Positions 3,544 through 39,685 of a stretch of DNA of 56,608 bases are shown one piece after another (position 1 is the stretch's first letter; each line of letters starts with the position of its first letter). A program made the translations under genes and the position numbers. Source of the stretch: an uncultured Verrucomicrobia subdivision 3 bacterium (GTDB taxonomy: Bacteria; Verrucomicrobiota; Verrucomicrobiia; Limisphaerales; UBA11358); the NCBI GenBank assembly GCA_903842235.1, contig CAIMLG010000099.1:1-56608 (forward strand), written 5' to 3'. Below the pieces are notes generated by a model, which worked only from the letters and a program-made list of their open reading frames with translations, was not told the DNA's origin and did no database searches.

Positions 3544-4449
3544 ATGAATACCGAAACTCCCGTGATCGAAATTCAAAACCTCGTGCGCCGCTACGGCCGG
3601 CACGACGCCGTGAACGGCCTCTCGCTCACGGTTCAGCCCGGCCAATGCTACGGCTTCTTCGGCCGCAACGGCGCGGGCAAGACCACCACCATCAAGTGCC
3701 TGCTGAATCTGCTCCGGCCCGACGCCGGCGGCGTGCGCGTGTTCGGCTTGGACCCGCGTAAGGCCGAGGTGGCCGTCAAATCCCGGCTGGCCTACGTTCC
3801 GGACCTGGTGGCGTTTTATCCCTGGATGACCGTGCGCACCACGCTGGAATATCTCGCGTCCTTCCGCCGCCACTGGAACCGGGACATTGAAAACGACCTG
3901 CTGACCCGCTTTCAGCTCGATCCCACCAAGAAGACGACCAGCCTTTCCAAAGGGCAGCGCACGCAGTTGGCGCTCATCGGCGCGATTTGCCCGGAGCCGG
4001 AGCTGCTGCTGCTGGACGAGCCGACCAGCGGCCTCGACCCCATCGTGCGCCGCGAATTCATTGAGACCGTCATTGGCGCCTATCAATCTGGCGATCCCAC
4101 CCGCCGCACGGTGTTCGTTTCCACCCACCTCATCTCCGAGTTTGAAGGCTTGATTGACGAGTTCACCATCCTTGAGCAGGGCCGCGAGCTGCTCTCCATG
4201 AACGCCGATGCCGCCCGCGACCGGTTCAAAAAAATCCGCGCCCGGCTGCCGCAGGAAATGAAACTGAATCTCACCGGCGCGTTGCAGGTCAAGCGCTCCG
4301 GCCGCGAGGTGGAAATCCTCGCCAACGGCAATTGCGCGCAGTTGCTGGCGGAGCTGAAAATGCATTCGCCCGAGGAATTGAAGACCGAATCGCTGACGCT
4401 GGAGGAAATCTTCGTGGCGTCGGACGTTTTGAAAAAGGCCGTCGCATGA
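3544..4449 (+). CDS. ABC transporter ATP-binding protein (ABC-2 type export)
   Basis: A 301 residue ATPase of the multidrug/bacitracin-type (CcmA-like) class. It shows a Walker A GRNGAGKTT at residues 40-48, the ABC signature LSKGQ beginning at residue 134, Walker B LLLLDEP with D158 and E159, and an H-loop STHLISE. The signature reads LSKGQ rather than LSGGQ, as is common in the ABC-2 branch. The ~90 residue tail after the ATPase is typical of this group. ATG 3544 is preferred to the in-frame ATG at 3526, which overlaps the regulator's end, because AAGGA at 3535-3539 stands just ahead of it. Its last four bases (ATGA) are shared with the permease start, so the two are translationally coupled. 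It powers the following permease at the inner membrane; the substrate is unknown. Confidence 0.93.
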   Translation: MNTETPVIEIQNLVRRYGRHDAVNGLSLTVQPGQCYGFFGRNGAGKTTTIKCLLNLLRPDAGGVRVFGLDPRKAEVAVKSRLAYVPDLVAFYPWMTVRTTLEYLASFRRHWNRDIENDLLTRFQLDPTKKTTSLSKGQRTQLALIGAICPEPELLLLDEPTSGLDPIVRREFIETVIGAYQSGDPTRRTVFVSTHLISEFEGLIDEFTILEQGRELLSMNADAARDRFKKIRARLPQEMKLNLTGALQVKRSGREVEILANGNCAQLLAELKMHSPEELKTESLTLEEIFVASDVLKKAVA

Positions 4450-7262: not shown

Positions 7263-7601
7263 CGGTCCGCGCATTTCGCGGGGCGTCGCTCCCGCGCCAG
7301 CGTTTTGGAGTGCGGCGGCCCGCCCCCGCTTACCCCTCCCGAATCAACCCGTGTGCTCTTCTATTGAAAAGTTTTTGGATTTCCCCGGGCGGAAAATGAC
7401 GTCTTTTGGGGAGTCGGAGCCCCTTTCGTCGAGATGCTGCTCCGCCCCGTCCCGATTGCGGCGCGCGAGGGCGCTCGCCTCACCGGCTTCGCTTCCATCT
7501 GTGTTTATCTGTGTCCATCCGTGGCTAAAACTTTCCCGGCGCCACTGTTGGGTTCCCAATAATCCTTTGTGCCGGCGGGGCTTTGTGGTAAATCCTTCCG
7601 C
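7263..7601. other. Intergenic region with a dispersed repeat
   Basis: About 340 bases with no gene. The left part is GC-rich and low in information; the middle (GAAAATGACGTCTTTTGGGG) is unremarkable; the right part carries a dispersed repeat at 7497-7534. An in-frame GTG at 7569 would extend the following gene by 11 codons, but has no better ribosome site than GTG 7602. Confidence 0.6.
7497..7534 (+). repeat. Dispersed intergenic repeat, copy 2 (GTCCATCCGTGGCTAAAA type)
   Basis: ATCTGTGTTTATCTGTGTC then CATCCGTGGCTAAAACTTT. This is the most complete of the three copies in the window. It shares GTCCATC-N-GTGGC and AACTTT with the reverse-strand copy at 11291-11325 and the CCGTGG-TTAAAA part with the copy at 3021-3057. 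All copies lie between genes. Confidence 0.7.
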
Positions 7602-8516
7602 GTGGATACGGTCACCCAACTCACCAACGATCTCGTCGCGTCCTACGCGCGGCTCGGCGGCATCAATCATCTGGATGGCAAAAATCTGCCGTCCAAAACC
7701 GCCATCACCAAGATCACGCAAGATTTGCTGCGCCTGTTATTCCCGGGTTTCTTTGAGGAGCAGCTGATTCATTCCTCGGAAATCAAGGCGGAGACGGCAG
7801 CCCTGCTGGATTCCCTCCTCGGCAAGCTGGAGGATGAAATTCGCAAAAGTTTTGAATATCAGCCGCCGGCCGGGTTGGCCAAAAAGGACCTCGCCCGCGC
7901 CGCGCATCAGGTGACGGTGGCCTTTCTCGGCGGCCTGCCGTCGATCCGCGAAATTTTGCAGACGGACATGCAGGCGGCCTTTGACGGCGACCCGGCGGCC
8001 TCCAGCAAGGAGGAAATTCTCGTTTCCTATCCGTTTGTGGAAGCCATCGCCGTGCAGCGGCTGGCGCATGAGCTTTACCGGAAGAACGTGCCGCTCATCC
8101 CGCGCATCATGAGCGAGTGGGCGCACGCGCGCACGGGCATGGACCTGCATCCGGGCGCGAAGATCGGCTCGCACTTCTTTGTGGATCATTGTACCGGCAC
8201 GGTCGTGGGCGAGACCTGCATCATCGGCCAGCATGTGAAGCTGTATCACGGCGTGACGCTGGGGGCGAAATCCACCGCCGCCGGCCAGTTGCTGCGCGGC
8301 AAGAAGCGGCATCCCACCCTCGAGGATCGCGTGACGATTTATCCCGGCGCGACCATTCTCGGCGGCGAGACGATCATTGGCGCGGGCAGCACCATTGGCG
8401 GCAACGTGTTCATCATGGCCAGCGTGCCGCCGAATTCCTTGGTGATCTACGATGGGCTGGACATGCGCGTGCTCAACAAGGCGCAAAAAAACGCCGAGCT
8501 GGATTTTCAGATTTAA
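7602..8516 (+). CDS. cysE: Serine O-acetyltransferase
   Basis: A 304 residue enzyme that transfers acetyl from acetyl-CoA to L-serine, the committed step of cysteine synthesis in the cytoplasm. An N-terminal helical domain of ~180 residues is followed by a left-handed beta-helix of hexapeptide repeats. Key motifs are visible: SHFFVDHCTGTVVGET with D195/H196, and KLYHGVTLGAKS with H216, then GAGSTIGGNVFI repeats and an NSLV loop. The length matches the larger EpsC/SrpH-type acetyltransferases rather than the short forms. GTG 7602 is taken as start; GTG 7569 is possible and neither has a strong Shine-Dalgarno. It converges on the xylulokinase gene with only 15 bases between stops. No cysK partner is nearby. 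Confidence 0.87.
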   Translation: MDTVTQLTNDLVASYARLGGINHLDGKNLPSKTAITKITQDLLRLLFPGFFEEQLIHSSEIKAETAALLDSLLGKLEDEIRKSFEYQPPAGLAKKDLARAAHQVTVAFLGGLPSIREILQTDMQAAFDGDPAASSKEEILVSYPFVEAIAVQRLAHELYRKNVPLIPRIMSEWAHARTGMDLHPGAKIGSHFFVDHCTGTVVGETCIIGQHVKLYHGVTLGAKSTAAGQLLRGKKRHPTLEDRVTIYPGATILGGETIIGAGSTIGGNVFIMASVPPNSLVIYDGLDMRVLNKAQKNAELDFQI

Positions 8517-8531
8517 GCGCGCCGGGCGGCT

Positions 8532-10112
8532 TCAAACGACGTAAAGCGCGTCGTTTTCGCAGGAGGCGTATTTCTCGAGCAGATGGTCGTAAACTTTCGC
8601 CGCCTTTTTGTCCGGGAGAATTTCGCTGCCGGGCAGGGGGGCGGTGAAACCGGCGACCAGTTTGTCCCACTTCGGACTTTTGTCGGTCGCCACCAGCCAG
8701 CCGTGGGCGGCCTGCAGGGCGGCCCCGAGCGCGGCGCTGTTGGCCACTTCGATGCGCAGCACCGGGCAGTTCATCACGTCGGCCATCACCTGTAGCAGCT
8801 GCGGATTGCTGGCGGCCCCGCCGGTGGCGAAGATTTTTTCCGGGGCCATCTGCATCCACTGCGAATGCAGCCGCATGGCCAGCATCTGCGCCTCGAAAAT
8901 GGCGCGGCAATTGGCGGCGGCATCTTTTTCATCGAGATTGAAGCGGTGGACTTTCGGCTGGTTCACGCGGGGAACGATCTCCGCCTCAAACCACGGCAGC
9001 AGCACGCCGCCGTTATTGCCGGGGGGCGTGGTGGCGAGCAGTTTGCCAAACGCGCTCCAATCCTTGAGGCCGTAGAGCGCGCGGATTTTCTCGCGGGCGA
9101 GCGAGCCGTTTTTGAAGCAGACGAGCGTCAGGTAGCTGCCGGTGGGCGAGCCGAAGACGTGGCCTTCCCCGGTTTCATCCGTCTGGCATTTCTCCATGGT
9201 GCCGATGAAGGTGTCGCTGGTGCCGAGGCTGATGGCGGCTTGACCGGGCTTGATGAGGCCCAGGCCGAGGGCGCTGGCGGGATTATCGCCGGTCCACACG
9301 GTGGCGAGCGCGGCGGCGTTGAAGCCGTATTTCTGAACGAAGTAGGCGCTGACCGGGCCGATGACCCAGCCGGCATCCGCGAGGGCGGGCAGTTTTTTCA
9401 CCAGGCCGGGCGCGGTGGCCTTGAGCGCATCGTGGTTCCAGTTCTTCCGGCGGATGTCCATGAGGTTCGTGCCCGCGCCGTCGCCGAAATCAATCGGCGC
9501 AATTTTTCCGGCGAGCACGGAGGCCAGAAACGAGCTGACCAGCGCGATGCTCGTGGTCTTGTCGTAGGCTTTCGGCTCGGTCTTGTAAAACTTGCGGACC
9601 TGCGGGCCGGTGAAGCGTTCGAACGTGTCCGAGCCGGTGCGCGAGGCGGTGAATTTGATGCCGCCGAGTTTCTTGCGGATCTCGGCGCATTCCTTCGTGG
9701 TGGAGGCGTCCATCCAGATGGGCGCGGTTTTGCGCGCGAAAATGCCGGCGAGATTATCCGCGAGGGATTGCTTGGGATCCAGCGTGGCGAGCGTGGTCGC
9801 GGCTTTTTCGTTGAGATAAACGGAGCCGTGCTGCTGGCCGCAGCCGCTGATGGCGATGATTTTTCCGAGCGCCACCTTGTCCTTTTTCATCTGCGCCAGC
9901 AGCCGGTCCAGCGCGGCGGCCCAGAGCAGCGGCGGGCTGTGCTTGACCAGCGGATCGCGGTTGGGCAGCACGCCGTGCTTGGTTTTGAACTGCGGCAGCG
10001 CCTGGTCGTAATTCACGGATTGTTCATAGACCACCTTGCGGGCATCGAGGTCGATGACCACCGCGCTTAAACTTTGGGTGCTGGCATCGAGGCCGAGAAA
10101 TAATTTAGCCAT
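8532..10112 (-). CDS. xylB: Xylulokinase (FGGY family, eukaryotic XYLB-like)
   Basis: A 526 residue FGGY sugar kinase that phosphorylates D-xylulose with ATP. The N-terminal ATPase fold starts LFLGLDASTQSLSAVVIDLD; SGCGQQHGSVY, PIWMDASTT and PIDFGDGAGTNLMDI contribute the sugar site, with the D of DGAGT as the likely catalytic base. The second lobe shows VWTGDNPASALGLG, SLGTSDTF, LVCFKNGSLAREKIR and the ADP site ATGGAASNPQLLQVMADV. The length (~525) and the CFKNGSLAREKIR, GDGAGTNL and SGCGQQHGS stretches resemble animal XYLB more than the ~480 residue E. coli XylB. ATG 10112 is chosen because GLDASTQ follows at the usual distance; the frame is open 18 codons further. No xylose isomerase lies beside it. 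Confidence 0.88.
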   Translation of the reverse strand: MAKLFLGLDASTQSLSAVVIDLDARKVVYEQSVNYDQALPQFKTKHGVLPNRDPLVKHSPPLLWAAALDRLLAQMKKDKVALGKIIAISGCGQQHGSVYLNEKAATTLATLDPKQSLADNLAGIFARKTAPIWMDASTTKECAEIRKKLGGIKFTASRTGSDTFERFTGPQVRKFYKTEPKAYDKTTSIALVSSFLASVLAGKIAPIDFGDGAGTNLMDIRRKNWNHDALKATAPGLVKKLPALADAGWVIGPVSAYFVQKYGFNAAALATVWTGDNPASALGLGLIKPGQAAISLGTSDTFIGTMEKCQTDETGEGHVFGSPTGSYLTLVCFKNGSLAREKIRALYGLKDWSAFGKLLATTPPGNNGGVLLPWFEAEIVPRVNQPKVHRFNLDEKDAAANCRAIFEAQMLAMRLHSQWMQMAPEKIFATGGAASNPQLLQVMADVMNCPVLRIEVANSAALGAALQAAHGWLVATDKSPKWDKLVAGFTAPLPGSEILPDKKAAKVYDHLLEKYASCENDALYVV

Positions 10113-10272
10113 GTGATTGGAGCTGGTTTTCCGAATAATCGGGTAATAATAGGGGATTCCCGCCAAATGGCCAGCTTAACCGTGCGTCAATGCGGGCTGT
10201 CAAGGATTCCGCATCCGGCGGGCGGGCCATCCCCGGCGTCATTTTTCCTCCGCGCGGCCCGGAATTCGGCCC

Positions 10273-11304
10273 TCAGGCGCGGGGCCGGAGCCGCTTTTGC
10301 ACGCGCTCCAAAACCCCGGCGGGGGCCAGGGCGCGGAGGCATTCCTCGGGTTTCTCAAAACGGCAGGTGGCCTTCAGGCAGGGCGAGCAGGGCAGGTCGA
10401 GGCGCAAAACATTTTCGAGCTGGCCATAGGGGCCGGTGCGGCGCGGTTCGGTGGGGCCGAAGAGCGCGACGAGGGGTTTGCCCAGGGCGGCCGCCACATG
10501 CATGGGGCCCGTGTCGTTCGTGACCATGATCTCACCGCGCCGCACCCACTCGATCATTTCCGGCAGGGTCGTGGCTCCGCATAGGTTCAGGCAGCGTCCG
10601 GGGGCGGCTTGCAAAATAATTTCCCCGAGGGGCCGGTCGTCCCGCCCGCCGAGGATGGCGAAGCGGAGATCGGGGAATAGCTGGGCCAGCTCGCGCACGA
10701 GCGTGGCGAAATGGGTCGCGGGCCAGCGCTTGTTTTCCCAGCGGGCGCCGGGCTGGAGCGTGATCCAGCGGGTCGGGCCGGCCGGCCACTTGGATTCCAC
10801 GGCGGCGGCAATTTCCGGGCGCTCCGGCAGCCAGGTGAACGGGCGGTGCACCGGCACGCCGAGCGGCGGCAGCACGGCGAGATACCAGTCCACCGCGTGG
10901 GTGTGAAAACTTTTGCGCGGCGCCGCGTGGTCGTAAAAGCCGCGCGCGCCTTCGCGAATTTCATCGAGCCCCACGAGCTGTTTCCCATTGGCCAGCCAGC
11001 CAAACGCGCCGCTGCGGAGCAGGCCTTGGAGATCAATGACGAGATCGAAATTTTGGGCGCGCAGCGTGCGGATGCTGCGGAGCATTTCCGGCCAGTGCCG
11101 CGGGTTGCCCCAGCGTTTGCGCTCAAAGCGAACCACGCCGGCCAGGTCGGGATCGCCTTCGAGAAGCGGCGCCAGGCCGGCGTCGATCCACCAGTAAATT
11201 TCTGCGGCCGGATAATGCCGCTTGAGCAACCGCAGGACGGGCAGCGCCTGGATGACGTCGCCGAGCGAACTGGGTTTGAGGATCAGGATTTTCAAAGTTG
11301 CCAC
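10273..11304 (-). CDS. Glycosyltransferase family 9 (heptosyltransferase-like)
   Basis: A 343 residue GT-B enzyme like lipopolysaccharide heptosyltransferases (WaaC/WaaF/WaaQ), which add heptose from ADP-heptose to the LPS core at the inner face of the inner membrane. The N terminus ILILKPSSLGDVIQALPVLRLL and the C-terminal nucleotide-sugar site (QPGARWENKRWP; TNDTGPMHVAAALGKPLVALFGPTEP; TGPYG) are family hallmarks. Three late cysteines in LPCSPCLKATC are also often seen. The start is uncertain: GTG at 11304 gives MATLKIL, but TTG at 11295 gives the more typical MKILILKPS; the GTG lies within a dispersed repeat. No other LPS gene is adjacent. Confidence 0.88.
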   Translation of the reverse strand: MATLKILILKPSSLGDVIQALPVLRLLKRHYPAAEIYWWIDAGLAPLLEGDPDLAGVVRFERKRWGNPRHWPEMLRSIRTLRAQNFDLVIDLQGLLRSGAFGWLANGKQLVGLDEIREGARGFYDHAAPRKSFHTHAVDWYLAVLPPLGVPVHRPFTWLPERPEIAAAVESKWPAGPTRWITLQPGARWENKRWPATHFATLVRELAQLFPDLRFAILGGRDDRPLGEIILQAAPGRCLNLCGATTLPEMIEWVRRGEIMVTNDTGPMHVAAALGKPLVALFGPTEPRRTGPYGQLENVLRLDLPCSPCLKATCRFEKPEECLRALAPAGVLERVQKRLRPRA

Positions 11305-11325
11305 CGATGGACGCGGATAAAAACG
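11291..11325 (-). repeat. Dispersed intergenic repeat, copy 3, overlapping a gene start
   Basis: Read on the minus strand: ATCCGCGTCCATCGGTGGC followed by AACTTTGAA. It aligns with GTCCATCCGTGGCTAAAACTTT at 7514-7534. The GTG in the core is the apparent first codon of the glycosyltransferase gene, so the repeat either supplied the start codon or the true start is the TTG nine bases later. Confidence 0.55.
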
Positions 11326-11387
11326 TTGCCGGGTTCACGGCTGGCTTACGCCCTGTGAATCCCGGCGTCTCGTGGGGCCTGAAAAAA

Positions 11388-12110
11388 TTATCGGCCGTAA
11401 GCCAGGCGTTCCGCCAGCCGTTCGGGCAGGCCGGCCTCGCGGATTTTTCGCTGGGCGGTCTCAATGTCGTAGTCCAGCCGGCGCAGTTCAATGGTGCCGG
11501 CGGTCATGTCATAAATCACATAGCCGCACTTGGGATTGTTGTCCCGGGGCTGGCCGACGGCGCCCACGTTAATGAAATATTTTTTGGACGGATCGATCTT
11601 AAACTTGGAATAGGTCCCGCCGCGGACGACGGTGTCCCGCATGAATGCCACGGGCACATGCGTGTGGCCGAAGAAGCACAGCTGCGTGGTTTGATAGGGA
11701 AAATTGGCGGCGGCGGCGAGCTTGTCAAAGACGTATTGCCAGCGCTGGGGGGCGTCCAGCGTGGCGTGCACCATCGTGAAATTGTCGGCCATGCGGGTGT
11801 ATTTGAGGTCGGCCAGCCATTGCTTCTCATCGGCGTCCAGCTGGTCCCGGGTCCAGTGGACGGCGTCCGCGGCCGCCGGGTTGAAGCCATCAAGGTGGTC
11901 GTTGCTGGAACAGTATTCGTCGTGGTTGCCCTTGATGCAGGGAATGTTCATCTCGCGGATGATCTGGAGACATTCCTTGGGGTTGGCGTTGTAGCCGACG
12001 ACATCGCCCAAGCAGACAATGTGGTTTGCCTTCTGGGCGCGGATATCCTCCAGCACCACCTGGAAAGCTTCCAGATTGGCGTGGATGTCGGCGATAATGG
12101 CGTATTTCAT
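11388..12110 (-). CDS. Metallophosphoesterase (YfcE/MJ0936-like phosphodiesterase)
   Basis: A 240 residue calcineurin-type phosphoesterase with the full set of metal ligands in order: DIHANLEAF near residue 8, GDVVGYNANP, GNHDEY, a VHATL histidine, and GHTHVP. The final segment YFINVGAVGQPRDNNPKCGY is characteristic of the bacterial YfcE/MJ0936-like subfamily, cytoplasmic dimetal enzymes that hydrolyse phosphodiesters in vitro and whose natural substrate is generally unknown. Length is normal. It is three bases downstream of the acylphosphatase stop on the same strand, so the two are probably co-transcribed. The start ATG 12110 places the DIHAN motif at the usual position. Confidence 0.9.
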   Translation of the reverse strand: MKYAIIADIHANLEAFQVVLEDIRAQKANHIVCLGDVVGYNANPKECLQIIREMNIPCIKGNHDEYCSSNDHLDGFNPAAADAVHWTRDQLDADEKQWLADLKYTRMADNFTMVHATLDAPQRWQYVFDKLAAAANFPYQTTQLCFFGHTHVPVAFMRDTVVRGGTYSKFKIDPSKKYFINVGAVGQPRDNNPKCGYVIYDMTAGTIELRRLDYDIETAQRKIREAGLPERLAERLAYGR

Positions 12111-12113
12111 TTC

Positions 12114-12377
12114 CTAGCGAACGATTTCAAATCCCCGAAATTCATTTTTCGCGGCGGCCCAAGTTACCTGCTCGTCGCGAATAAATCCAGCAAGACCTGC
12201 ATCTTGGATTCCGGCGCGAAAAGCGGCGAGCTCTGCCCGGGTGCCTTCGGCCACCAGTTCGACCCGGCCGTCGGGCTGGTTGCGAATAATGCCCGTTACC
12301 TCGTAGCCGGCGGCCACGGTCTTGGCCGTGTAGCGAAACCCCACGCCTTGCACATTGCCGGAATACCATACGGTCAT
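12114..12377 (-). CDS. acyP: Acylphosphatase
   Basis: An 87 residue enzyme, close to the usual 90. It hydrolyses carboxyl-phosphate bonds such as acetyl phosphate or 1,3-bisphosphoglycerate in the cytoplasm. The phosphate loop GNVQGVGFRYTAK holds the catalytic Arg, and IRNQPDGRVELVAEG holds the catalytic Asn. ATG 12377 (MTVWYSGNVQGVG) gives a family-length protein; the frame is open 31 codons upstream but that extension looks non-coding. It is divergent from the pilus locus and followed closely by the metallophosphoesterase gene. Confidence 0.88.
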   Translation of the reverse strand: MTVWYSGNVQGVGFRYTAKTVAAGYEVTGIIRNQPDGRVELVAEGTRAELAAFRAGIQDAGLAGFIRDEQVTWAAAKNEFRGFEIVR

Positions 12378-12432
12378 CCGGGTGCGCAGGTTGGGGGTGG
12401 TGGTTGGCGACACAGCAGGATGAAGCCAAAGG

Positions 12433-28305: not shown

Positions 28306-31300
28306 GTGAATACCATTCAGAAAATGTTTGTCGAATTGCCGGTGGCCGTCCGTGTTGTGCTGGCCGGGTGGATGAAGTTGGCGCTGGTCGCGGGCCTGGG
28401 CCTGCTGGCCAGCTTGGCCGTTGCCCAGCCCGCCAATGACAATTTTACCAATGCCGCGGTTATTTCGGGGCTGTCCGGCGCCCTTGCCGGCACCAACAAC
28501 TTGGCCACCCTGGAGGCGGGGGAACCGGATTTTATTAACACCGATGATTTTGCTGGCGTCGCGAAGTCCGTCTGGTATCGGTGGATCGCGCCCTCGAACG
28601 GCGTGGTGGCTTTTGACACGTTCGGCGGCGATTTTGACACGGTGCTGGCGGTTTACACCAATGCTCCGACGCTCGGCAACCTCGTGACGGCGAATGACGA
28701 CTATATCACTTTGTTCGTGGTCCAAAGCCGGCTGACCTTCACGGCGGTGGCGGGAACCACCTATTACATTTCGGTGAACGGCAATCAATCCCCGGCCCCG
28801 GGTTGGAGTGACGCCGGCTCCTTTGTTCTGAACTGGAAAGAAACGGTCCCTACCGTCCCGTCCGGCACCTTTTTATTCACCGCCGCCACGTATAATGTCA
28901 GTGATGGCGATGCGTCTTCGCCCGGCGATCCGGCCATGGCCTCGGTGCCTACCTGGGTGGGCGCGCGGGTGACCGTCACCCGTACGAAGGGCTACAGCGG
29001 ACGGGTTTTGGTGCCCTACGTGGTGACCGGAGATTCCAATCAGCCGGCGGCCACGGTCACTAATGGCCTGTTGATTTTTGACGACTACCAGATGAGCGCC
29101 GATATCCGCGTGACGCTATCTGCGGTTGCTGTCATCCCTGCCCCCGACACAAATACTGTCGCTTATGCGCCGCCCAATCAAATTGCGGTCACGCTGGGTA
29201 CCCCGATTTTGGATCCGCTGGAATCCACGGACTTGATTCCGCCGGTGGCGGCGGGGGTGACAAATACGATCGTCAACGTGGTGAGTTGGAATAAGCCCGC
29301 CAGCCTGGCAGATCGGGCGGCCACCCTGCCTTTTTTCTACATTGAACGCACGCATTTCCGTTGTCGAGAAAGTCAAGGGAATGCCGTCGTTTATGTCTAT
29401 CCTTCCCGGGCTCCTCGCAGTGATGAAAGGTGGGCCTTGAATTACACCTTTGACCATAGCTCTGGTTTGATCGACGAGGGACCGTCATACAATACCTTCC
29501 CGCTTGAGGCTGGCTCTGATTACGCTACGCCAGGCGTTGATTTTGTTGCTGCTGGCGGAACGTTCACTTGGGAGCCGGGGGATGCCAGTCGTCGGGCGAT
29601 TTCCATTCCGATTACCGATGACCCCGATCCGGAGTTCAATGAGGATTTGGAAGCGGAGATCTACTATCCGCGGGACACCGCCCATAATAACGCCGTGCTG
29701 GCGCTGGGGCAGATTTCCAAGGCCACGGTGACCATTCTGTTTGACGATCAGCCTGCCGGCGCCGTGGATCGCACTTGGAACAAGGATGGGGCCAACGATT
29801 CCCTTCCGCCGTTCTTGCAGTATCCTGGAACCCAGGGCGGGATCAGCGACAGTGCCAACGGCAACGGCGGCACGGTCTATGCCGCCGCCGAACAGCCCGA
29901 TGGCAAGGTGATCATTGCGGGCAGCTTTATTTCGTATGACTCCAATCCCTATAACCGGATTGTGCGCGTCTTGGCCAACGGCTATCAGGATCCCGCCTTT
30001 CAGGGAAATTTTTCCCCGTGGTATAACAGCGGCGCCGATGACACCATTAATTGCGTGGTGCTGCAGCCGGACGGGAAGATTCTGATCGGGGGCAACTTCA
30101 CCTCCTTTAACGGTGCCAGCCGCTATCGCGTCGCCCGCCTCAACGCGAATGGCTCGGTGGACACGACCTTCACGCCCGGTGCAGGGGCCAACGGCAAGGT
30201 TTTTGCCATCAGCCTGCAGTCCGACGGCAAAATCTACATTGCTGGCGCATTTACGGCCTATAACAATACGAATTGCAGTTATCTGGCGCGTTTGAACGAC
30301 GATGGCTCGCTGGACACAGCCTTTAATCCCGGGGATTCGATCAGCCAGCCGGTTTATGCGCTGGCGGTGCCGGCTTCCGGCACCAACTCGGTGTATGCCG
30401 GTGGGGCCTTTACCCACATCGGCGGGGTCACCTATGGCTGCGTCGCCCGTTTTAACGGCGACGGCTCGGTGGATGCCGCCTTCAACCCCGGTATCGGCAC
30501 CTATAATCCCAAAACCGGAACCAACGATCCGGTTTATGCGCTGGCTTTGCAGCCGGACGGAAAATTGGTCGTGGGGGGAACCTTTTCCACGGTGGAAATG
30601 ATCGCGATCAACGGGATCACGCGTTTCAACCCGGATGGCACGTTGGATGCCGGGTTCAGCACGGTGGGCGCCCTCAACGGCACTTACAATCCGGTCACCG
30701 GCGTGGCGGACCGGGTGAATGTCATCACCCTTCAGGCGGATGGGAACATCCTCCTGGGCGGCGACTTTGCGAACGTCAATCAAACCCGCCGGATCGGCCT
30801 TGCCCGGCTGTTCCGCAACGGCAGTCTGGACACGAGCTTCATGGATACGGCTTACAACCAGTTCGCCGGCCCGATCAACCATTATCATAATATTGATGCC
30901 ATCAACACCAATGATTATCCGCAGGGCAACCACCTCAATTCGATCCGGGCCATCGCCTTGGAAGCGGATGGGGACGTGATTGTGGGCGGGAATTTCCTGC
31001 GGTTCGGCGGCGGGTCTTACGCTCATTCGGGCCCGGCCAAACAGGGGGTTATCAATAACGGCCGGTTGGATACCCATCCGCGCAGTAACGTGGCGCGCTT
31101 GATTGGTGGGGGCACGCCCGGGCCCGGCAATCTGGAGCTTTCTTACGACCGGTATTCGGTGGACAAAAGTGCGGGCACCCTCTTTGTGTCCCTCGTCCGC
31201 AGCAATGGCAATCTGGGAACCATTGCGGCGAATTTTTACTCGCCCCTCGCAGCTACCAACCAGCAGGGCATTGCCAGATTGGGAACGGATTTCACCATCG

Positions 31301-34300
31301 GCAACCTCAAGCCGACTTGGGCGACCATGTGGTCGAGCTCCTGGACCCGGAGCGTCGCCTTTGAAGATCAGAATTATGTGGGTTCGGCGGGCAATAATGC
31401 GGCCGAAACGCTGACGATCATCAATAATACCAACTTCACCGGGAATGTGATTGCCAATCTGGCGTTGGTGGCCCCGGCCTTCGACCTTTTCAGCTTGGGT
31501 GGCGAGACGATTCCGCTCGGGGCGGCCCTCGGCCTGAATCAGACCAGTCCGATGACCATTATTGACGGGAACTTCCCGGCCGGCACCTTCAGTTTCAGCG
31601 CGCCGTCCTACACCGTGAACGAAAATGCCAGCACCGCGACCGTCACGCTCGTCCGCACCAATGGCACGAAGGGGATCGTGACGGTGTATTACCGGACTTT
31701 CAATGGCACGGCGATTAGTCCGACTGACTATACTAGTGTGAGCGATTCCCTGACCTTCGCTGATGGGGACACCAGTCAGTCCTTTACTGTCCCCATCATC
31801 CCCAGCACGGCCAATCAGCCGGACAAAACAATCAATCTCCTGCTCTATGGCGTCACTGGCGGGGGTAAACCCGGTTTGACCAATGCCGTGCTGACGATTG
31901 TGAACAATGTGTTTGGTGCCGGCCACGTCGCCCTCGCTTTCGCCACCAATACGGTGGCCGAGAATGCCGGGGTGGCTGGCATTGTGCTCAACCGTCTGGG
32001 TTCCAGCACCGGCACCCTGGATGTCACGGCCATTACCAGCGACGGTTCCGCCGTCAATGGGGTGAATTATGTGGGTTCAACCAACGTGATTCACTGGGAC
32101 AGCGCGGATGCTTTGCCCAAGACGATCACCATCCCTGTAAAGCGCGACTGGGTTTATACCACGAATCTGACGGTCAATCTCCGGTTGACTAATGGCTTGG
32201 CGGGGGGCCGGGCGAGTGCGTATGTGCTGGGGCTTTCCGCCATCACCAACGCGACCTTGGTCATCACCAATGTGGATTTCCCCGGGACGGTGGAATTTTC
32301 GGCGGCCGCCTATTCGGTTAAGAAATACGGGGGCACCGCGCATATTCCGGTGATCCGCACCGGGGGCAGCGCCGGCACCCTCACGGTCACCAACTACACC
32401 GTGGATGGCACGGCTTTGAGCGGGATGAATTACATCGGCCAGACCAACGTTCTGACTTTCACGAACGGGCAGGTCAGCCGGTTCTTTGATGTGCCCGTCA
32501 TCGCCGGCGCCACCGGCGGCTTGGTGTCCTTGAATCTGTTTTTAACCAACGCCACGGTGCTGAATAGCCCCTTGCCCTGGAATGCGTCCGGCAGTCCGGC
32601 GCGGGCGGTGCTGAACATTATTGATACGACCCCCACCAATCCGGGGGCCGTGCTGGAGACGCCCGGTTCGCCCGATATTACCTATAGTCCATTGAGTGGT
32701 TTTGATGATGCCGTGCTGGCGCTCGCCCTTCAGTCCAACAACCAGTTGATCGTCGGCGGTGATTTCACCATGGCCTGTGGCGTGTATCGCCAGCGCTTGG
32801 CCCGCTTGAATGAGGACGGCACTTTGGATCCCACCTTCCTCTTCCCGTCCGCCGCTTTTGGGGCAGACAATTCCATCCGCACGCTCGCCCTCCAGTCGGA
32901 TGGCCGTATTCTGGTGGGCGGGTTCTTCACCAACCTAAACAGCGTGGTTCGCCATGGCATTGCCCGGCTGAACTACGACGGTTCGTTGGACAGCCGCTTC
33001 AATCCGGGTTCTGGGGCCGACAATCCGGTGTATGCCGTCGCGGAAACTTTTGTGAGCGGTCAGCGGAAAATTCTGGTGGCCGGCTCTTTCACCCGCCTGA
33101 ACGGGGTGGTGGCAAACGGTTTTGGCTGCTTGGATGGCGACGGCATTAATGGCCAGGAAGGTCGTCCGGATGCCTCTTTCAATCCGGGCGGCGCGGGCGC
33201 CAATGGCAAGGTGTATGCCTTGGCGGTCCAAACGGATGGCAAAATCCTCCTGGGCGGTGATTTTACCACCGTGAACGGGGTCTCCGCCAACCATATCGCC
33301 CGGTTGAACGTGGATGGTTCCGTGGATCTGTCCTTTACCAACGCGACCGCCAATGATTCCGTTCGGGCCATCGCCCTTCAGTTGGATGGCCAGATTCTGG
33401 TCGGCGGCCTGTTCACCAGCGCCAATGGCAGTACCAACTTTAACCACCTGGCCCGGTTGAATAGCGCGGATGGCTCCGCCGATAATTCCTTCACGCCGGG
33501 CTTGGGGGCGGATGACGGCGTCTTCACCATCGCCGTGCAGACGGACAACCGGATTGTGCTGGGCGGGGAGTTTACTCATTGCAGTGGCGTCCAGCGCAAC
33601 CGGATCACGCGGTTGAATCCGGATGGCACCGTGGATCCCACCATTAATTTTGGCGTGGGGGCCGATAGTTTTGTGCAGGCGGTCGTGATTGAGCAAGCCT
33701 CCATCCATAGCTATCCCACCAATGTGCCGGATGAGAAAATTATCATCGGCGGCGGTTTTACCCGCTATTATGGGGAATCGCATCCGCATCTGGCCCGGAT
33801 TTATGGCGGTTCCATGATGGGCGTCGGGAATTTTGAATTCTCATCGGGGGCGTATTCCGTCAATGAGAACGGCACGAATGTCGTTATCACCATCAATCGG
33901 GTTGGCGGCACCAGCGGCCCCAATACGGATGGTTCCGGAAATGTGTTTGTCACCTGCTTCACCACCGATGGCACTGCCCGGGCGGATACGGATCATGCCG
34001 GCGCGACTAATTATTTTAGTGTGGTGGCCAATCTGACCTTTGTTCCGGGCGAGGTTCAGCAGACTGTCGTGGTTTCCGTGCAGGACGACCGGATCATCAC
34101 CCCGGACCTGACTGTCAACCTCGGGCTGACCCCGCAGGCTCCCGCCGAATACGGTGGCCAGCCCACGGCGGTGCTCACCATCGTCAATGTGGATAGCGCC
34201 ATCAGTTTCTCGGCTCCCGCCTATCTGGCCGCCAAGTATGCTGCCGGAGCCCCGGATGGGCAGGCGGCGGTGGATATCAACCGGCTGGGGTCAACGGTCG

Positions 34301-36609
34301 GCACTTCCACGGTCACGTTTAACACCGCTGCCGGCGGCACGGCGGTGCCCGGGGTGGATTATCAATCGGTGACGAATGTTTTAGTGACCTTTGCTCCCGG
34401 GGTTTCCACCCAGACCATGATGATCCCCGTCATCAACGGCGTCTCCGACGGCGACCAGACCGTGGCCCTGCAGTTGACCAATCCGACCGGTTCGGCTTTG
34501 GTTGCCCCATCCAATGCCGTGCTGACCATTCAGGATCGGACGCTGGCGAGGGGGTCGTTTAGGTTTTCCTCGACCGACTATGGGGTCAGCGAGGGCGGCG
34601 GTTCCGGCTATGCCAATTGTGTGATTACCGTGGTGCGCACCAATGGCGTGACGGGAACCGTGACGGTGGGCTACGGCACCTCGGATGGCACGGCGGTGGC
34701 CGGGGCGAAATATGTTCCCACCAGCGGCGTGCTGACCTTCGATCGCGGGGAAATCAGCAAGACTTTCACGGTTCAAGTTCTAAATACTGGAACGGTGGAG
34801 CCGACCGAATTCTTCTCGGTCTGGCTGGCCAATGCCACCGGCGGGGCGGGGTTGACGGATCCGACGAACGCCACGGTGACGATTTTGAACACCAATACCG
34901 GCGTGGCGTTTCTGGCGGCGACCAACACGTTCGATGAATCGGGCTTGGCGGCCACCCTCACCGTCCAGCGTTATAACAACACGCAGGGGACGAGCACCAT
35001 CTATTATACCATCACCAATGGCACGGCGGTGGCCGGGGTCAACTTCGTTGACAACGGCGCGCCCCACCAGCTGGTGTTTAACGATGGGGCCGCGCAGGCG
35101 GTCATCTTCATCCCGCTGATTTACGATACCAATTATACCGGCGACAAGCAGTTTACCGTGGGCTTGGTCAATCCCAGCGCCGGAATGCAGATCGGGACGC
35201 CGGGCATGACCACGGTGATCCTGCGCGATGTGGATGTCGGGGTGGGTTTCACCAATGCCACCGCCAGCGTGCTGAAGAATGCCGGCAGCTTGGCGGTGAC
35301 CGTGCATTGCTATAACACCAACGCCGGGCCGGTCTCTGTCAGCTACGCCACTGCCGATGGCACCGCCACCAATCATGCGGTGGGCGGCCGGGATTATGCC
35401 CCCACCAGCGGCCTGTTGACCTTTAGCAACGGTATTGCCGACCGGACCTTCTCCGTGCCCATCCTCTATAGCAGCGCCAATCCCGGCGATCATGTCTTTG
35501 AAATCAACTTGTCCAATCCGACCAGTCCGGGCCGCCTCGTTCCGCCCAGCCAGATGATGGTGACCATCGTGGACAGCGATTCCGCCCTGCGCTTCTCCAG
35601 CGCCGATTTTACCGTGCTCAAAACGGCCGGGGCGGCGCGCATCACTGTCTATCGCACCGGGTATGCGAACTCGGTGGCCGCCGTGAATTTCATGGCCACC
35701 AACGGCACCGCCCTGGCCGGGCTCAATTTTATCGCCACCAACGGCACGCTGGTCTTCGCCCCCGGCGTGGTCTCCAATTCCTTCACGGTTCCCATCATTG
35801 GATCGACGACGGTTCAGCCGGACCGGACTGTGTTGCTGCAATTGACCAGCCCCGTGAACGGCCTGCTGGCGGCCCCCTCGGCGGCCCTGTTGACCATTCA
35901 TGACGACACCGGCAGCTTCGTTGTCCCGGCTGGGGCGCAGTTGCTCTCGGAAATCGGGGCCGGGGCGCCCAACGGGCTGATTGATCCTGGCGAGACGGTT
36001 CAAATTCTGTTTGCCTTCCGGGTCGCGGGCGGCACCAATGTCAACAACTTGGTCGCCACGCTGCTGCCCTCCAGCGGCATCACGCCGGTCAATCCCGTGA
36101 CCAAAATTTATGGGCCGCTCGCTTATCGGGGTCACTCCGCCTCGCAGCCGTTCACCTTCACGGCGGCCGGCACCAATCGGCAGCAAATTGTCGCCACCTT
36201 CCGGCTGCAGGATGGGGCGCTGGATATCGGCACCAATGTTTTTGGTTTCAGCCTCGGTAGTTGGACCGCGGTTTATTCCAATACCACGCCGATTGTCATC
36301 AACGACAACACCAACGCCTCGCCGTATCCCTCGACGATTAATGTGAGCCAGGTGGGCGGTTCGCTCGTCAAGGCCACGGTCACCTTGAGCAAGTTCTCCC
36401 ACACCTCGCCGAAGGATGTGGCGGCGCTGGTGGTCGCGCCTTCGGGCCTGAACACCCTGATCATGGCGGGCGCCGGCGGCGGAAATGCCGTGACCAATCT
36501 CGTGCTGACCTTTGATGACGCGGCGGCCGCCAGTTTGTCGGCCACCAACCGCCTCACCAACGGTGTTTACAAGCCCACCCAATATTATCCGGTGAAAAAT
36601 TTCCCCTGA
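28306..36609 (+). CDS. Giant surface protein: Calx-beta domains and two seven-repeat propellers, truncated C-terminal module
   Basis: A 2767 residue exported protein with GTG start 28306 and a signal peptide (LVAGLGLLASLAVAQ). In order: a PPC-like domain (~45-180), two Calx-beta-like domains, seven delta-60 repeats at ~525-935 (QPDGKILIGGNFTSFNGAS type), about four Calx-beta domains, seven more delta-60 repeats at ~1445-1840, six Calx-beta domains (DGTAVAGAKYVPTSGVLTF type), a LIDPGETVQILFAF-type domain, and finally the front half of a proprotein-convertase-P-like module that stops after KPTQYYPVKNFP. Delta-60 clusters of seven fit two seven-bladed propellers. Calx-beta domains bind calcium and act as adhesive spacers. 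The sudden end in mid-module and the matching remainder in the next gene suggest the gene was interrupted. Probably an extracellular adhesin or matrix protein. Confidence 0.85.
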   Translation: MNTIQKMFVELPVAVRVVLAGWMKLALVAGLGLLASLAVAQPANDNFTNAAVISGLSGALAGTNNLATLEAGEPDFINTDDFAGVAKSVWYRWIAPSNGVVAFDTFGGDFDTVLAVYTNAPTLGNLVTANDDYITLFVVQSRLTFTAVAGTTYYISVNGNQSPAPGWSDAGSFVLNWKETVPTVPSGTFLFTAATYNVSDGDASSPGDPAMASVPTWVGARVTVTRTKGYSGRVLVPYVVTGDSNQPAATVTNGLLIFDDYQMSADIRVTLSAVAVIPAPDTNTVAYAPPNQIAVTLGTPILDPLESTDLIPPVAAGVTNTIVNVVSWNKPASLADRAATLPFFYIERTHFRCRESQGNAVVYVYPSRAPRSDERWALNYTFDHSSGLIDEGPSYNTFPLEAGSDYATPGVDFVAAGGTFTWEPGDASRRAISIPITDDPDPEFNEDLEAEIYYPRDTAHNNAVLALGQISKATVTILFDDQPAGAVDRTWNKDGANDSLPPFLQYPGTQGGISDSANGNGGTVYAAAEQPDGKVIIAGSFISYDSNPYNRIVRVLANGYQDPAFQGNFSPWYNSGADDTINCVVLQPDGKILIGGNFTSFNGASRYRVARLNANGSVDTTFTPGAGANGKVFAISLQSDGKIYIAGAFTAYNNTNCSYLARLNDDGSLDTAFNPGDSISQPVYALAVPASGTNSVYAGGAFTHIGGVTYGCVARFNGDGSVDAAFNPGIGTYNPKTGTNDPVYALALQPDGKLVVGGTFSTVEMIAINGITRFNPDGTLDAGFSTVGALNGTYNPVTGVADRVNVITLQADGNILLGGDFANVNQTRRIGLARLFRNGSLDTSFMDTAYNQFAGPINHYHNIDAINTNDYPQGNHLNSIRAIALEADGDVIVGGNFLRFGGGSYAHSGPAKQGVINNGRLDTHPRSNVARLIGGGTPGPGNLELSYDRYSVDKSAGTLFVSLVRSNGNLGTIAANFYSPLAATNQQGIARLGTDFTIGNLKPTWATMWSSSWTRSVAFEDQNYVGSAGNNAAETLTIINNTNFTGNVIANLALVAPAFDLFSLGGETIPLGAALGLNQTSPMTIIDGNFPAGTFSFSAPSYTVNENASTATVTLVRTNGTKGIVTVYYRTFNGTAISPTDYTSVSDSLTFADGDTSQSFTVPIIPSTANQPDKTINLLLYGVTGGGKPGLTNAVLTIVNNVFGAGHVALAFATNTVAENAGVAGIVLNRLGSSTGTLDVTAITSDGSAVNGVNYVGSTNVIHWDSADALPKTITIPVKRDWVYTTNLTVNLRLTNGLAGGRASAYVLGLSAITNATLVITNVDFPGTVEFSAAAYSVKKYGGTAHIPVIRTGGSAGTLTVTNYTVDGTALSGMNYIGQTNVLTFTNGQVSRFFDVPVIAGATGGLVSLNLFLTNATVLNSPLPWNASGSPARAVLNIIDTTPTNPGAVLETPGSPDITYSPLSGFDDAVLALALQSNNQLIVGGDFTMACGVYRQRLARLNEDGTLDPTFLFPSAAFGADNSIRTLALQSDGRILVGGFFTNLNSVVRHGIARLNYDGSLDSRFNPGSGADNPVYAVAETFVSGQRKILVAGSFTRLNGVVANGFGCLDGDGINGQEGRPDASFNPGGAGANGKVYALAVQTDGKILLGGDFTTVNGVSANHIARLNVDGSVDLSFTNATANDSVRAIALQLDGQILVGGLFTSANGSTNFNHLARLNSADGSADNSFTPGLGADDGVFTIAVQTDNRIVLGGEFTHCSGVQRNRITRLNPDGTVDPTINFGVGADSFVQAVVIEQASIHSYPTNVPDEKIIIGGGFTRYYGESHPHLARIYGGSMMGVGNFEFSSGAYSVNENGTNVVITINRVGGTSGPNTDGSGNVFVTCFTTDGTARADTDHAGATNYFSVVANLTFVPGEVQQTVVVSVQDDRIITPDLTVNLGLTPQAPAEYGGQPTAVLTIVNVDSAISFSAPAYLAAKYAAGAPDGQAAVDINRLGSTVGTSTVTFNTAAGGTAVPGVDYQSVTNVLVTFAPGVSTQTMMIPVINGVSDGDQTVALQLTNPTGSALVAPSNAVLTIQDRTLARGSFRFSSTDYGVSEGGGSGYANCVITVVRTNGVTGTVTVGYGTSDGTAVAGAKYVPTSGVLTFDRGEISKTFTVQVLNTGTVEPTEFFSVWLANATGGAGLTDPTNATVTILNTNTGVAFLAATNTFDESGLAATLTVQRYNNTQGTSTIYYTITNGTAVAGVNFVDNGAPHQLVFNDGAAQAVIFIPLIYDTNYTGDKQFTVGLVNPSAGMQIGTPGMTTVILRDVDVGVGFTNATASVLKNAGSLAVTVHCYNTNAGPVSVSYATADGTATNHAVGGRDYAPTSGLLTFSNGIADRTFSVPILYSSANPGDHVFEINLSNPTSPGRLVPPSQMMVTIVDSDSALRFSSADFTVLKTAGAARITVYRTGYANSVAAVNFMATNGTALAGLNFIATNGTLVFAPGVVSNSFTVPIIGSTTVQPDRTVLLQLTSPVNGLLAAPSAALLTIHDDTGSFVVPAGAQLLSEIGAGAPNGLIDPGETVQILFAFRVAGGTNVNNLVATLLPSSGITPVNPVTKIYGPLAYRGHSASQPFTFTAAGTNRQQIVATFRLQDGALDIGTNVFGFSLGSWTAVYSNTTPIVINDNTNASPYPSTINVSQVGGSLVKATVTLSKFSHTSPKDVAALVVAPSGLNTLIMAGAGGGNAVTNLVLTFDDAAAASLSATNRLTNGVYKPTQYYPVKNFP

Positions 36610-36629
36610 ACGGCGATGCCTGAATTTGC

Positions 36630-39095
36630 ATGAAAGCTTTTATGAGTAAGATTTTTTTGAGGACGAGTCTCGGAGCCTTCGCCGTGGCCGGCTTGGTTTG
36701 GTCCGCGCCCGCCGCCGGGCCGGGCCTCCTGAAACAGCTTCACGGCCATGTGCCGCCGGCGACGGCGCATCTGGTCCCGAACGGCCGGTCGGCGGAAACG
36801 AATCGTTTGCTTCTGGCCATTGGCTTGCCCCTGCGGGACCCCGAGGCGCTCACCAATCTGCTGGCCCAGATTTATGATCCCTCCAGCCCCCACTTCCAGC
36901 ACTATCTCACGCCGGCGGAGTTTACGGCCCATTTTGCTCCGACCGAGCCGGAGTTCCAGAAGGTGGTTGATTTTGCCCAGGCTAACGGCCTCACCGTCAC
37001 GGTTCGGCACCCCAACCGGCTGATTTTGGATGTGGCAGGCAGTGTCCGGAACATTGAAAAGGCGTTTAAAGTGACGCTGCGCACCTACCGGCATCCCAAG
37101 GAATCCCGCACCTTTTTCGCTCCCGATGCCGAGCCGGCGGTGGATTCCGCGTTGCCCATCCTCCACATCAGCGGAATGGATAACTATTCGGTGCCGCGGC
37201 CAAAGGCGCATATTATTCCGTTAAGTCAAATTTCTCAGGTCGCGCCGCAGGCCGGCTCCGGCCCCAAAGGAACTTATCTGGGTGCCGACTTCCGCACTGC
37301 TTATGTGCCGGGTACCACCTTGACGGGGGCGGGCCAAAATGTCGGGCTGGTGCAGTTTGATTCTTATTTTCCGGGCGATGTCGCGGCCTATGCGCGGGCC
37401 ATCGGTTTAGCCAACCCGCCGAACTTGGTGAATGTGCCGGTGGATGGCGGGGTGCCGGTGCCGGGCGGTGGCAATGGGGAGGTCTGTCTGGACATTGAAA
37501 TGATCATGTCCATGTCCCCGGGGGTTTCCAACATTTATGTTTATCAAGCGCCCAACCCCAGCCCGTGGGTGGACATCTTGAGCCAAATGGCGAATGACAA
37601 TCTGGCCCGCCAGTTGAGTTGCTCCTGGGGGGGCGGCCCGCCGGATGCCAGCGCCGAACAGATTTTCCAGCAGATGGCCTTGCAGGGGCAGACTTTCTTC
37701 AATGCCGTCGGGGATACCGATGCTTTTCTGGAACCGGATAATCCGATTACGTTTCCCTCGGACAGCCCGAATATTACGGAAGTGGGCGGGACGACGTTGA
37801 CCACCGCTGCCGGAGCCGTTTACACCTCGGAGAAGGTTTGGAATTGGAGAATTCCAAACCAGAACGGGGGCGAATGGGGTAGCAGTGGCGGCATCAGCAC
37901 CGACTATGCCATTCCCAACTGGCAAAAAGGTTTTGGCACCGGCGCGAATCATGGTTCCGCCACGTTCCGCAATACTCCGGATGTGGCGCTGACGGCCGAT
38001 AATGTCTATCTGATTTCGGATAATGGCCAGGCCGGTGCCAGCGGCGGGACTAGTGCGGCGGCACCCTTGTGGGCGGGCTTTACGGCCCTCATCAACCAAC
38101 AGGGAGCTTTGAATGGGCGTCCCTCCGTTGGCTTTCTGAATCCGACCCTTTACGCCCTGGCCAAAACCCCGTTCTATGCCAACTGTTTTCATGATGTCAC
38201 GAACAGTGACAACACCTGGTCGGGAAGTCCGACCAACTTTTTTGCCGTGCCGGGCTACGATCTCTGCACCGGCCTAGGCACGCCGGCGGGCACCAATCTG
38301 ATCAATGCGCTCACCCAGACGAACGGCGGTGGCGGTGGGATTGTGATTGTGGAGCCGATTATTTCCGCGCCGCCGCCGCCTTGGGGTTCAACTCTGGGCG
38401 TGATGAATGGCAGCAATCCCAACGGTTACTGGTTCCTGTTTGTGCAGGATGACAAGCCCTTGGATGTTGGGCTGATCAACAGCGGTTGGGCTATTGCTCT
38501 CACCACGGCCAATCCGGTCGGGTTTGCGGCAGATAACCAGCTTTATGTCACCGCCACCAATCTCTCGGTCGTTCCCGGGACGGATTTTAGCATCTTCTAT
38601 GCCGTGACCAACTATGGCCCGTCCGCGTCCACCGGCGTGGTGGTCTCAGTGATCACCCCTATTTCCGGCGTCACCTTGGTTTCTTCCAATGCCCCCTTGA
38701 GCGTTGTGGGTTCAACGCTGGCATGGTCGGTTGGCAATCTGCCTGCGAATACGGGTGCCAGCCTGTCGTTGACCTTCCACGCCGCCACCACGGGCATTTA
38801 CACGAATGAGGCCCAGGTATCGGCCACCACCGTGGATCCGAACCCGGACGATGACTCCGTTGCCACCCTCGTTACGGTAGCCAATTCGACTCCGCCCCAG
38901 TTGACCCCCGTGTTTATCGGCGGCGGGGCGGGCGGGTTCCAATTGTCGGTCACGGGTTCCCCTGGCCAGACCGTGGTGATTGAAGCGTCCACCAATCTGG
39001 TGAACTGGGTGCCGGTGTATACGAACATTGTTCCCTTCACCTATACCAATACCGATTCCGCGAATTACCCGCTGCGGTTCTATCGGGGATTCTGA
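36630..39095 (+). CDS. Sedolisin family serine-carboxyl peptidase (S53) with P-like and repeat tail
   Basis: An 821 residue exported peptidase. After a signal peptide (LGAFAVAGLVWSAPAAG) comes a pro-kumamolisin activation domain (~35-190: PSSPHFQHYLTPAEFTAHFAPT, LDVAGSVRNIEKAFKV), then the catalytic domain (~205-555). The triad Glu-Asp-Ser is visible as GEVCLDIE (E284, D288) and SGGTSAAAP (S475), with the oxyanion Asp in AVGDTD (D362) and the calcium site VPGYDLCTGLGTP near the domain end. Sedolisins are acid-active endopeptidases. The tail is unusual: after a Gly/Val linker comes PPPPWGSTLGVMNGSNPNG...WAIALTTANP, the back half of a P-like module, then a DUF11/CARDB-type domain and a VIEASTNLVNWVPV ending. 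The front half of that module is the end of the preceding gene. Confidence 0.9.
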   Translation: MKAFMSKIFLRTSLGAFAVAGLVWSAPAAGPGLLKQLHGHVPPATAHLVPNGRSAETNRLLLAIGLPLRDPEALTNLLAQIYDPSSPHFQHYLTPAEFTAHFAPTEPEFQKVVDFAQANGLTVTVRHPNRLILDVAGSVRNIEKAFKVTLRTYRHPKESRTFFAPDAEPAVDSALPILHISGMDNYSVPRPKAHIIPLSQISQVAPQAGSGPKGTYLGADFRTAYVPGTTLTGAGQNVGLVQFDSYFPGDVAAYARAIGLANPPNLVNVPVDGGVPVPGGGNGEVCLDIEMIMSMSPGVSNIYVYQAPNPSPWVDILSQMANDNLARQLSCSWGGGPPDASAEQIFQQMALQGQTFFNAVGDTDAFLEPDNPITFPSDSPNITEVGGTTLTTAAGAVYTSEKVWNWRIPNQNGGEWGSSGGISTDYAIPNWQKGFGTGANHGSATFRNTPDVALTADNVYLISDNGQAGASGGTSAAAPLWAGFTALINQQGALNGRPSVGFLNPTLYALAKTPFYANCFHDVTNSDNTWSGSPTNFFAVPGYDLCTGLGTPAGTNLINALTQTNGGGGGIVIVEPIISAPPPPWGSTLGVMNGSNPNGYWFLFVQDDKPLDVGLINSGWAIALTTANPVGFAADNQLYVTATNLSVVPGTDFSIFYAVTNYGPSASTGVVVSVITPISGVTLVSSNAPLSVVGSTLAWSVGNLPANTGASLSLTFHAATTGIYTNEAQVSATTVDPNPDDDSVATLVTVANSTPPQLTPVFIGGGAGGFQLSVTGSPGQTVVIEASTNLVNWVPVYTNIVPFTYTNTDSANYPLRFYRGF

Positions 39096-39100
39096 TCTTC

Positions 39101-39685
39101 ATGAAACTTTGCGGTTTGACCGGCGGCGTGGGGATGGGAAAATCCACCGCCGCCGGTTTCTTTTCGGCGTCCGGCATTTGCGTGATTGATACGGACGAGC
39201 TGGCCCGCCAGGTCGTCCTGCCCGGCCAGCCGGCCCTCGCGGAAATTCACCAGGCGTTTGGCGGGGAGGTGTTTGATCCCGCGGGCGGGCTGCATCGGGC
39301 CCGCTTGGCGCGCCTCGTCTTTGGCGATGCAGCGGCCCGGCAAACGCTGGAAGCAATTCTGCATCCGCGGATCCGGGCCCTTTGGCTGGCCCAGGTGGCC
39401 AGCTGGCGCCGTCAGGGCTGCCCGTTGGCGGTGGTGGTCATCCCGCTCCTGTTCGAGACGCAGGCCGAAACCTGTTTTGATCAGGTCATTTGCGTTGCCT
39501 GTTCGCGCGTCGCCCAGCACGAGCGGCTGCGCCAGCGCGGCTGGTCTCCGGAGCAGATCCGGCAGCGCCTCGCCGCCCAGTGGCCGGTGGCGCAAAAAAT
39601 GGCGCGGGCCGATTTCGTGCTGTGGTCGGAAGGCGCGCTGGCTTCCTGCGCCCGGCAGGTGGCGCGGATTCTCGGGCGTCTTTGA
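39101..39685 (+). CDS. coaE: Dephospho-CoA kinase
   Basis: A 194 residue P-loop kinase, the last enzyme of coenzyme A synthesis (phosphorylation of the 3'-OH of dephospho-CoA) in the cytoplasm. It has the P-loop GGVGMGKST, the substrate motif VIDTDELARQV (the common form is DAD or DTD), the LHPRIR segment, VVVIPLLFE and the lid Arg-rich stretch RVAQHERLRQRGW. The length is normal. It starts six bases after the sedolisin stop, so a housekeeping gene ends this long run of surface-protein genes and is probably transcribed with them. Confidence 0.95.
   Translation: MKLCGLTGGVGMGKSTAAGFFSASGICVIDTDELARQVVLPGQPALAEIHQAFGGEVFDPAGGLHRARLARLVFGDAAARQTLEAILHPRIRALWLAQVASWRRQGCPLAVVVIPLLFETQAETCFDQVICVACSRVAQHERLRQRGWSPEQIRQRLAAQWPVAQKMARADFVLWSEGALASCARQVARILGRL

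Follow-up and report, generated by a model that had tools for sequence, protein, structure and literature searches.

A P domain divided between a giant protein and a neighboring protease in Verrucomicrobia, a candidate docking slot for interchangeable enzymes

In furin, Kex2, and the Aeromonas sobria serine protease, the P domain is complete and lies behind a subtilisin-type catalytic domain within one chain. In contrast to this P domain of proprotein convertases (PF01483), the one described here is cut in two, with one half on a giant protein and the other on an S53 peptidase or a metallopeptidase. It was found in a 56,608-nucleotide stretch of DNA (contig CAIMLG010000099.1 of assembly GCA_903842235.1, positions 1 to 56,608, forward strand; hereafter, the window) from an uncultured Verrucomicrobia subdivision 3 bacterium, where the gene of a giant protein is followed by that of a sedolisin-type peptidase. 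As judged by profile comparison, the module divided between these two genes is a P domain of the furin/Kex2 type, and we consider it rather probable, from comparisons among related loci, that the half on the protease completes the P domain of the giant in trans and so forms a docking slot for interchangeable proteases. A literature search, judged from the search-result entries, yielded no entry dealing with a split P domain or with this gene pair.

The giant protein of 2767 amino acids (aa), encoded at 28306..36609 (+ strand), contains DUF5122/delta-60 repeats and Calx-beta domains, has an N-terminus resembling a signal peptide as judged by eye, and ends inside the P domain with the final residues ..GVYKPTQYYPVKNFP. 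Its last 109 aa, ending in ..NFP (36280..36606, + strand), were assigned by hhalign to the N-terminal half of the domain (N-half). The C-terminal half (C-half; aa 578–629, 38361..38516, + strand), which reads ..IISAPPPPWGSTLGVMNGSNPNGYWFLFVQDD..GWAIALTTANP, was located with the same program in the next open reading frame (ORF), encoding the 821-aa sedolisin-type peptidase (36630..39095, + strand). With a 69-sequence profile of intact modules (69 rows) as the reference, the last 124 residues of the giant were aligned to profile columns 3–124 (E-value, 5e-38), and 52 of the 67 sedolisin residues supplied were aligned to columns 126–177 (E-value, 6e-18). These alignment scores place the half-module matches far beyond chance, and the halves complement each other, covering columns 3–124 and 126–177 and leaving a single column in between. 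The original prediction that one module is split over two genes, with its continuation placed after a complete sedolisin, was borne out by these columns and positions. The module was found to have the P-domain fold, and no single polypeptide of the window held the whole domain, its halves being on two ORFs. Main strands that the P domain of the giant lacks are carried by the protease, and the C-half has the pattern W-x-LF-x-x-D and GW, which persists through enzyme replacement. Pfam P_proprotein (PF01483) gave no row for either window protein at E-values up to 1; its match was present in intact relatives and weak in some C-half proteins.

The sedolisin gene has its own start, and its product has a signal-peptide-like N-terminus (by eye), a Pro-kumamolisin activation domain (aa 52–185, 36783..37184; PF09286, Pro-kuma_activ, E-value 1.3e-23), and a catalytic domain (aa about 205–562, 37242..38315) delimited by residue conservation over 26 loci. 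A match of this protein to PF00082 (E-value, 2e-6) was taken as a cross-match. Behind the C-half lie a DUF11 domain (38547..38864) and a C-terminal tail ending in ..YPLRFYRGF (38892..39092), both of which have intact giants as their closest matches. The following dephospho-CoA kinase-like gene (39101..39685), which we take to be coaE, served as a syntenic landmark. All of these features are on the + strand.

The same arrangement recurs in relatives. Among 49 genomes of the genus, including that of the window, 27 contained a sedolisin matching to residue 819 or beyond of 821, and the end of the giant was found upstream in 28 of the 30 loci tested; of the two exceptions, L029 lies at a contig edge and L036 has a sedolisin that lacks the tail. 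After removal of repeats (L009 is the same as L014, and L010 is the same as L025 where read), 26 distinct sedolisin pairs remained. Together with two metallopeptidase pairs, one from the same genus (L079) and one from another family (L164), they make 28 distinct split pairs from two families; two further pairs (L125 and L126), similar in appearance, were interrupted by contig ends. The giant and protease genes are adjacent and closely spaced or overlapping across the split loci, and the seam is exact, the giant ending in Phe-Pro in 27 of the 28 distinct loci and in Phe-His in one. Among 112 N-half relatives listed from the protein database (that of the window included), 52 end within 12 residues of the same place, 49 of them in FP, and 60 continue. 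A module match was present in 35 of the 49 genomes. No giant ending in the N-half was seen in 15 stretches preceding coaE, which come from 14 of these genomes (L108–L122, one genome represented twice); there, the pair may have been lost, never gained, or moved. A usual C-terminus of the giant at this very place had been named beforehand as a refuting observation; this is the case within the genus but not beyond it. The split is derived, yet old and maintained. The earlier picture, in which a local accident left the adhesin truncated and gave the peptidase a borrowed tail, does not agree with 28 distinct pairs, 52 N-half relatives ending at the same place, strongly conserved halves, and replacement of the enzyme between them.

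The hexamer ATTTCC, previously pointed out at both edges as maybe due to chance, is present at 36599–36604 and 38361–38366 and is best taken as chance. As an insertion repeat it was rejected: its codon phases differ, and it is the longest shared edge string in only 2 of the 28 split loci (the window and L016).

Conservation was expressed as mean pairwise identity over the 26 sedolisin loci. In the giant, identity was 57% in the N-half and 54–55% in the upstream part; in the protease, it was 56% in the prodomain, 60% in the catalytic domain, 61% in the C-half, 45% in DUF11, 47% in the tail, and 34% in the signal region, with 22% in the linker (measurable in 120 of 325 pairs). In conservation, both halves come close to the catalytic domain, whereas the linker beside the C-half does not. 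E284, D288, D362, S475, and two Asp residues of the presumed Ca site were invariant in 26/26 loci; we take them to represent the Ser-Glu-Asp triad, the oxyanion Asp, and the Ca-site Asp residues. Pairwise distances of the N-half correlated with those of the C-half on the other protein (r = 0.51), compared to r = 0.08 between the C-half and the catalytic domain of its own protein. After controlling for the other segments, the correlation between the halves was 0.27, a value reached in 0 of 2000 permutations, and the partial correlations of the upstream giant with the C-half and of the N-half with DUF11 were 0.08 and 0.06, respectively.

At least 204 distinct C-half proteins, counting that of the window and some fragments, were present among the matches listed from the protein database (112 in one search, 120 of 157 in another), with proteins of about 450–1440 aa admitted. 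They comprised 193 sedolisins (S53), 7 reprolysin-like metallopeptidases, and 4 M6 peptidases; DUF11 was found in every one, and an N-half match in the same chain in none of the 204. The enzymes found were S53, reprolysin-like, and M6, and no link to S8 subtilases was obtained. A metallopeptidase (G121) and an M6 protein (P0111) have 23% in common over the enzyme but 82% over the C-half and 92% over DUF11 plus tail; for the G015 metallopeptidase and the G016 sedolisin, the values are 25% over the enzyme and 78% over the C-half. In both the coaE tree (98/93) and the tree of the C-terminal part (100/99), G015 and G016 are sisters.

Exchange was also seen among sedolisins. In the cassette, the window enzyme groups with that of L014 (100/99), and a group of the window with L015, L017, and L026 is rejected (p value of the approximately unbiased test [p-AU], 2.5e-4), whereas the window-L014 grouping is rejected by the end of the giant (p = 1.5e-56) and by the C-half, DUF11, and tail (p = 8.6e-7); these p values are optimistic, since the groups were picked after viewing the trees. 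From about residue 46 to 420, the window mostly resembles L014 more closely (up to 97% in stretches of 30 residues); from there to about 510, it is about equally close to L014 and the flank relatives, and on either side of these two segments it is mostly nearer to the flank relatives. By these tree and stretch comparisons, the enzyme core of the window has an ancestry unlike that of both flanks. In a quick tree, the inserted sedolisins did not form one group among the free-standing ones fetched; 5 changes were counted, at least three of which were forced by starred branches. As read from these alignments and trees, the enzyme between the halves has been exchanged among members of three protease families while the halves stayed.

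Sedolisin sequences were also observed elsewhere. The split giant of G011 (3681 aa; L082, reverse complement, 1387–12432) also has an N-terminal sedolisin domain, and Pro-kuma_activ occurs in the database giants P0147 and P0167. On contig C278 of the window's own genome, two sedolisin matches (L003 and L006) overlap in position and differ in frame; they look like a broken or frameshifted paralogue.

Relatives in which both halves are continuous in one protein, whose existence had been proposed as a check, were found in the same genus (L073 of G006) and in another family (L123 of G107). In both, an intact giant with a complete P domain, DUF11, and the tail stands directly before coaE. In 23 further loci of the order, picked for strong module matches, the module of the giant (giant A) crosses the seam in 23/23, and a neighboring gene with additional modules (gene B) is present in 22/23. 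Gene B begins with a protease in 3/3 cases tested by Pfam (sedolisin in L128 and L129, M6-like in L132), and those of L153 and L154 have a sedolisin match as well. The mean score of the N-halves was higher with outgroup giant-A modules than with gene-B modules in 28/28 split loci, and the top match of the C-half, DUF11, and tail was an intact giant in 28/28. Because the N-halves fit A modules and the C-terminal parts fit intact giants, placement of a protease gene into one giant gene is supported, on these sequence matches, as the simplest origin. The earlier proposal that a sedolisin unit was inserted into a giant gene accordingly holds as to the protease lying inside the module of the giant and the intact giants beside coaE, and not as to a local accident. 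A split by two deletions from an outgroup-like order of giant A, gene B, and coaE, though conceivable, would require more steps; the N-halves match A rather than B and the C-terminal parts best match intact giants (type II), which makes insertion into a type II giant the shorter path. A single origin with G006 outside was not rejected (p-AU, 0.33 and 0.46 in two tests), and free trees put G006 elsewhere than outside a single split group; its intact giant may have survived unsplit or may have been fused again. The coaE tree alone resolves the genus poorly, with 32 of 67 inner branches open.

In several families, the gene order is giant A, whose P domain crosses the seam, then gene B, which has several P domains, and then coaE (L132, L137, L138, L143, L144, L151, L153, L155, and L158). 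B-like database proteins contain varied peptidase families, namely PF09286, PF00082, PF13582, and PF02128/PF07504, the last presumably M36-type. In G003, G010, and G017, a long sedolisin of 1333–1339 aa lies before coaE without a giant (L112, 7849–11868; L117 and L119, reverse complement, about 7413–11465), and the last 45 residues of that of G003 are almost identical to the end of the intact G006 giant. Small proteins of 275–287 aa with little beyond one complete P domain (L075, 7654–8481; L077, 3088–3951; L078, 8287–9144) have similar neighbors in three genomes.

The following course of events would account for the locus. The ancestor would have had a giant with one intact P domain, followed by DUF11 and the tail. 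The long loop of this P domain would then have received a protease gene that brought its own start and signal peptide, after which the giant would stop past the first half and the protease would bear the second half, DUF11, and tail. The two proteins would be produced from adjacent genes, whose close spacing or overlap would aid matched synthesis. Outside the cytoplasm, the C-half would complete the P domain of the giant, and the protease would dock non-covalently at the C-terminus of the giant; secretion of both proteins and a target of the protease are likewise presumed. The enzyme core would be replaceable because, as proposed, the interface consists of the halves and not of the enzyme, and recombination could thus have brought the three unrelated protease families into the slot. 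Two complementary conserved pieces were found on two chains, and differing enzymes were found with the same piece. With slightly more confidence than doubt, the pair may be regarded as a plug and socket for secreted enzymes in at least two families, with the socket half on the giant and the plug half on the current protease. We lean equally slightly toward the view that, in such a system, the core is exchanged between lineages and unrelated families while the plug is conserved.

Several observations weigh against docking. The pair is dispensable, as seen from the intact G006 giant and the 14 genomes of the genus without a giant ending in the N-half in the stretch before coaE. Before control for other segments, DUF11 correlated with the upstream giant at r = 0.59 and with the N-half at r = 0.44; because of the former value, the flanks appear to travel as a block and the signal is only partly particular to the halves, and partial Mantel tests are known to give significance too readily. 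Signal peptides were assigned by eye. In a single-chain model of the window sedolisin (16 sequences; mean predicted local distance difference test [pLDDT] score, 62), the C-half was unfolded (pLDDT, 26–36), as expected of a half domain by itself; this is a weak hint given the poor model, in which much of the catalytic domain is equally poor, so the disorder of the C-half counts little. DUF11 and the tail on the protease could be the real attachment.

This last point leads to an explanation that we regard as improbable, in which the C-half, DUF11, and tail together form one tail by which the protease is secreted or anchored, and the N-half pairs elsewhere, for example with another giant copy. 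The presence of DUF11 in all listed C-half proteins and its distances, which follow both parts of the giant, agree with such a role, but DUF11 and the tail are clearly less conserved than the C-half, the partial correlation of the N-half with the C-half exceeds that with DUF11, and such a tail occurs in intact giants alongside a complete P domain. Fission without function, in which a protease gene landed in a giant gene, the two products persist as secreted proteins, and the half-modules are relics or each fold by themselves, is compatible with the supported insertion origin and with the existence of intact giants and pair-less genomes. Neutral relics are nevertheless unlikely because the halves are constrained: they match the catalytic domain in conservation while the adjacent linker does not, the giants share their final residue pair in 27/28 cases, the C-half is retained through changes of enzyme family, and the distances of the halves correlate.

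Joining of the ORFs in translation, by programmed frameshift or stop readthrough, would yield one polypeptide in which the protease is internal and the P domain is restored. Ahead of the stop of the giant, a T TTC CCN heptamer is found in the window (36595–36609), L009, and L010, the first three loci read, and the protease frame is open directly behind this stop in 5 of the 26 distinct loci. However, the heptamer, though of slippery type, is explained by the conserved Phe-Pro codons, and the protease N-termini resemble signal peptides. Moreover, the relative ORF frames are mixed (12/7/7 of 26 distinct loci) and the −1 frame of the window has a TGA at 36621, ahead of the ATG at 36630, which makes translational fusion very unlikely.

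If the two halves bind as the docking reading proposes, a domain split in nature would here serve as a docking interface, and living unsplit relatives and natural enzyme swaps would be available for comparison. Such binding would explain how the giants of these Verrucomicrobia carry enzymes, would allow direct tests of how a protein-protein interface evolves out of a single folded domain, and would provide a ready split tag of about 110 and 50 residues for biotechnology. Like sedolisin and kumamolisin (S53), the window protease has a Pro-kuma_activ prodomain, and its presumed catalytic residues are intact in 26/26 loci; unlike them, it bears one half of a P domain together with DUF11 and a tail derived from a giant, and it is paired with a giant gene. 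The proposed arrangement would resemble the cohesin-dockerin system of cellulosomes in having one scaffold and a small docking part common to different enzymes, but it would involve two halves of one ordinary domain, one slot seen per giant, and proteases instead of glycan hydrolases. It would also be analogous to donor-strand complementation in pili and to split inteins in that a fold is completed by a piece of another chain, whereas the donor here would be a 50-residue half with two main strands, and neither splicing nor a polymer is implied.
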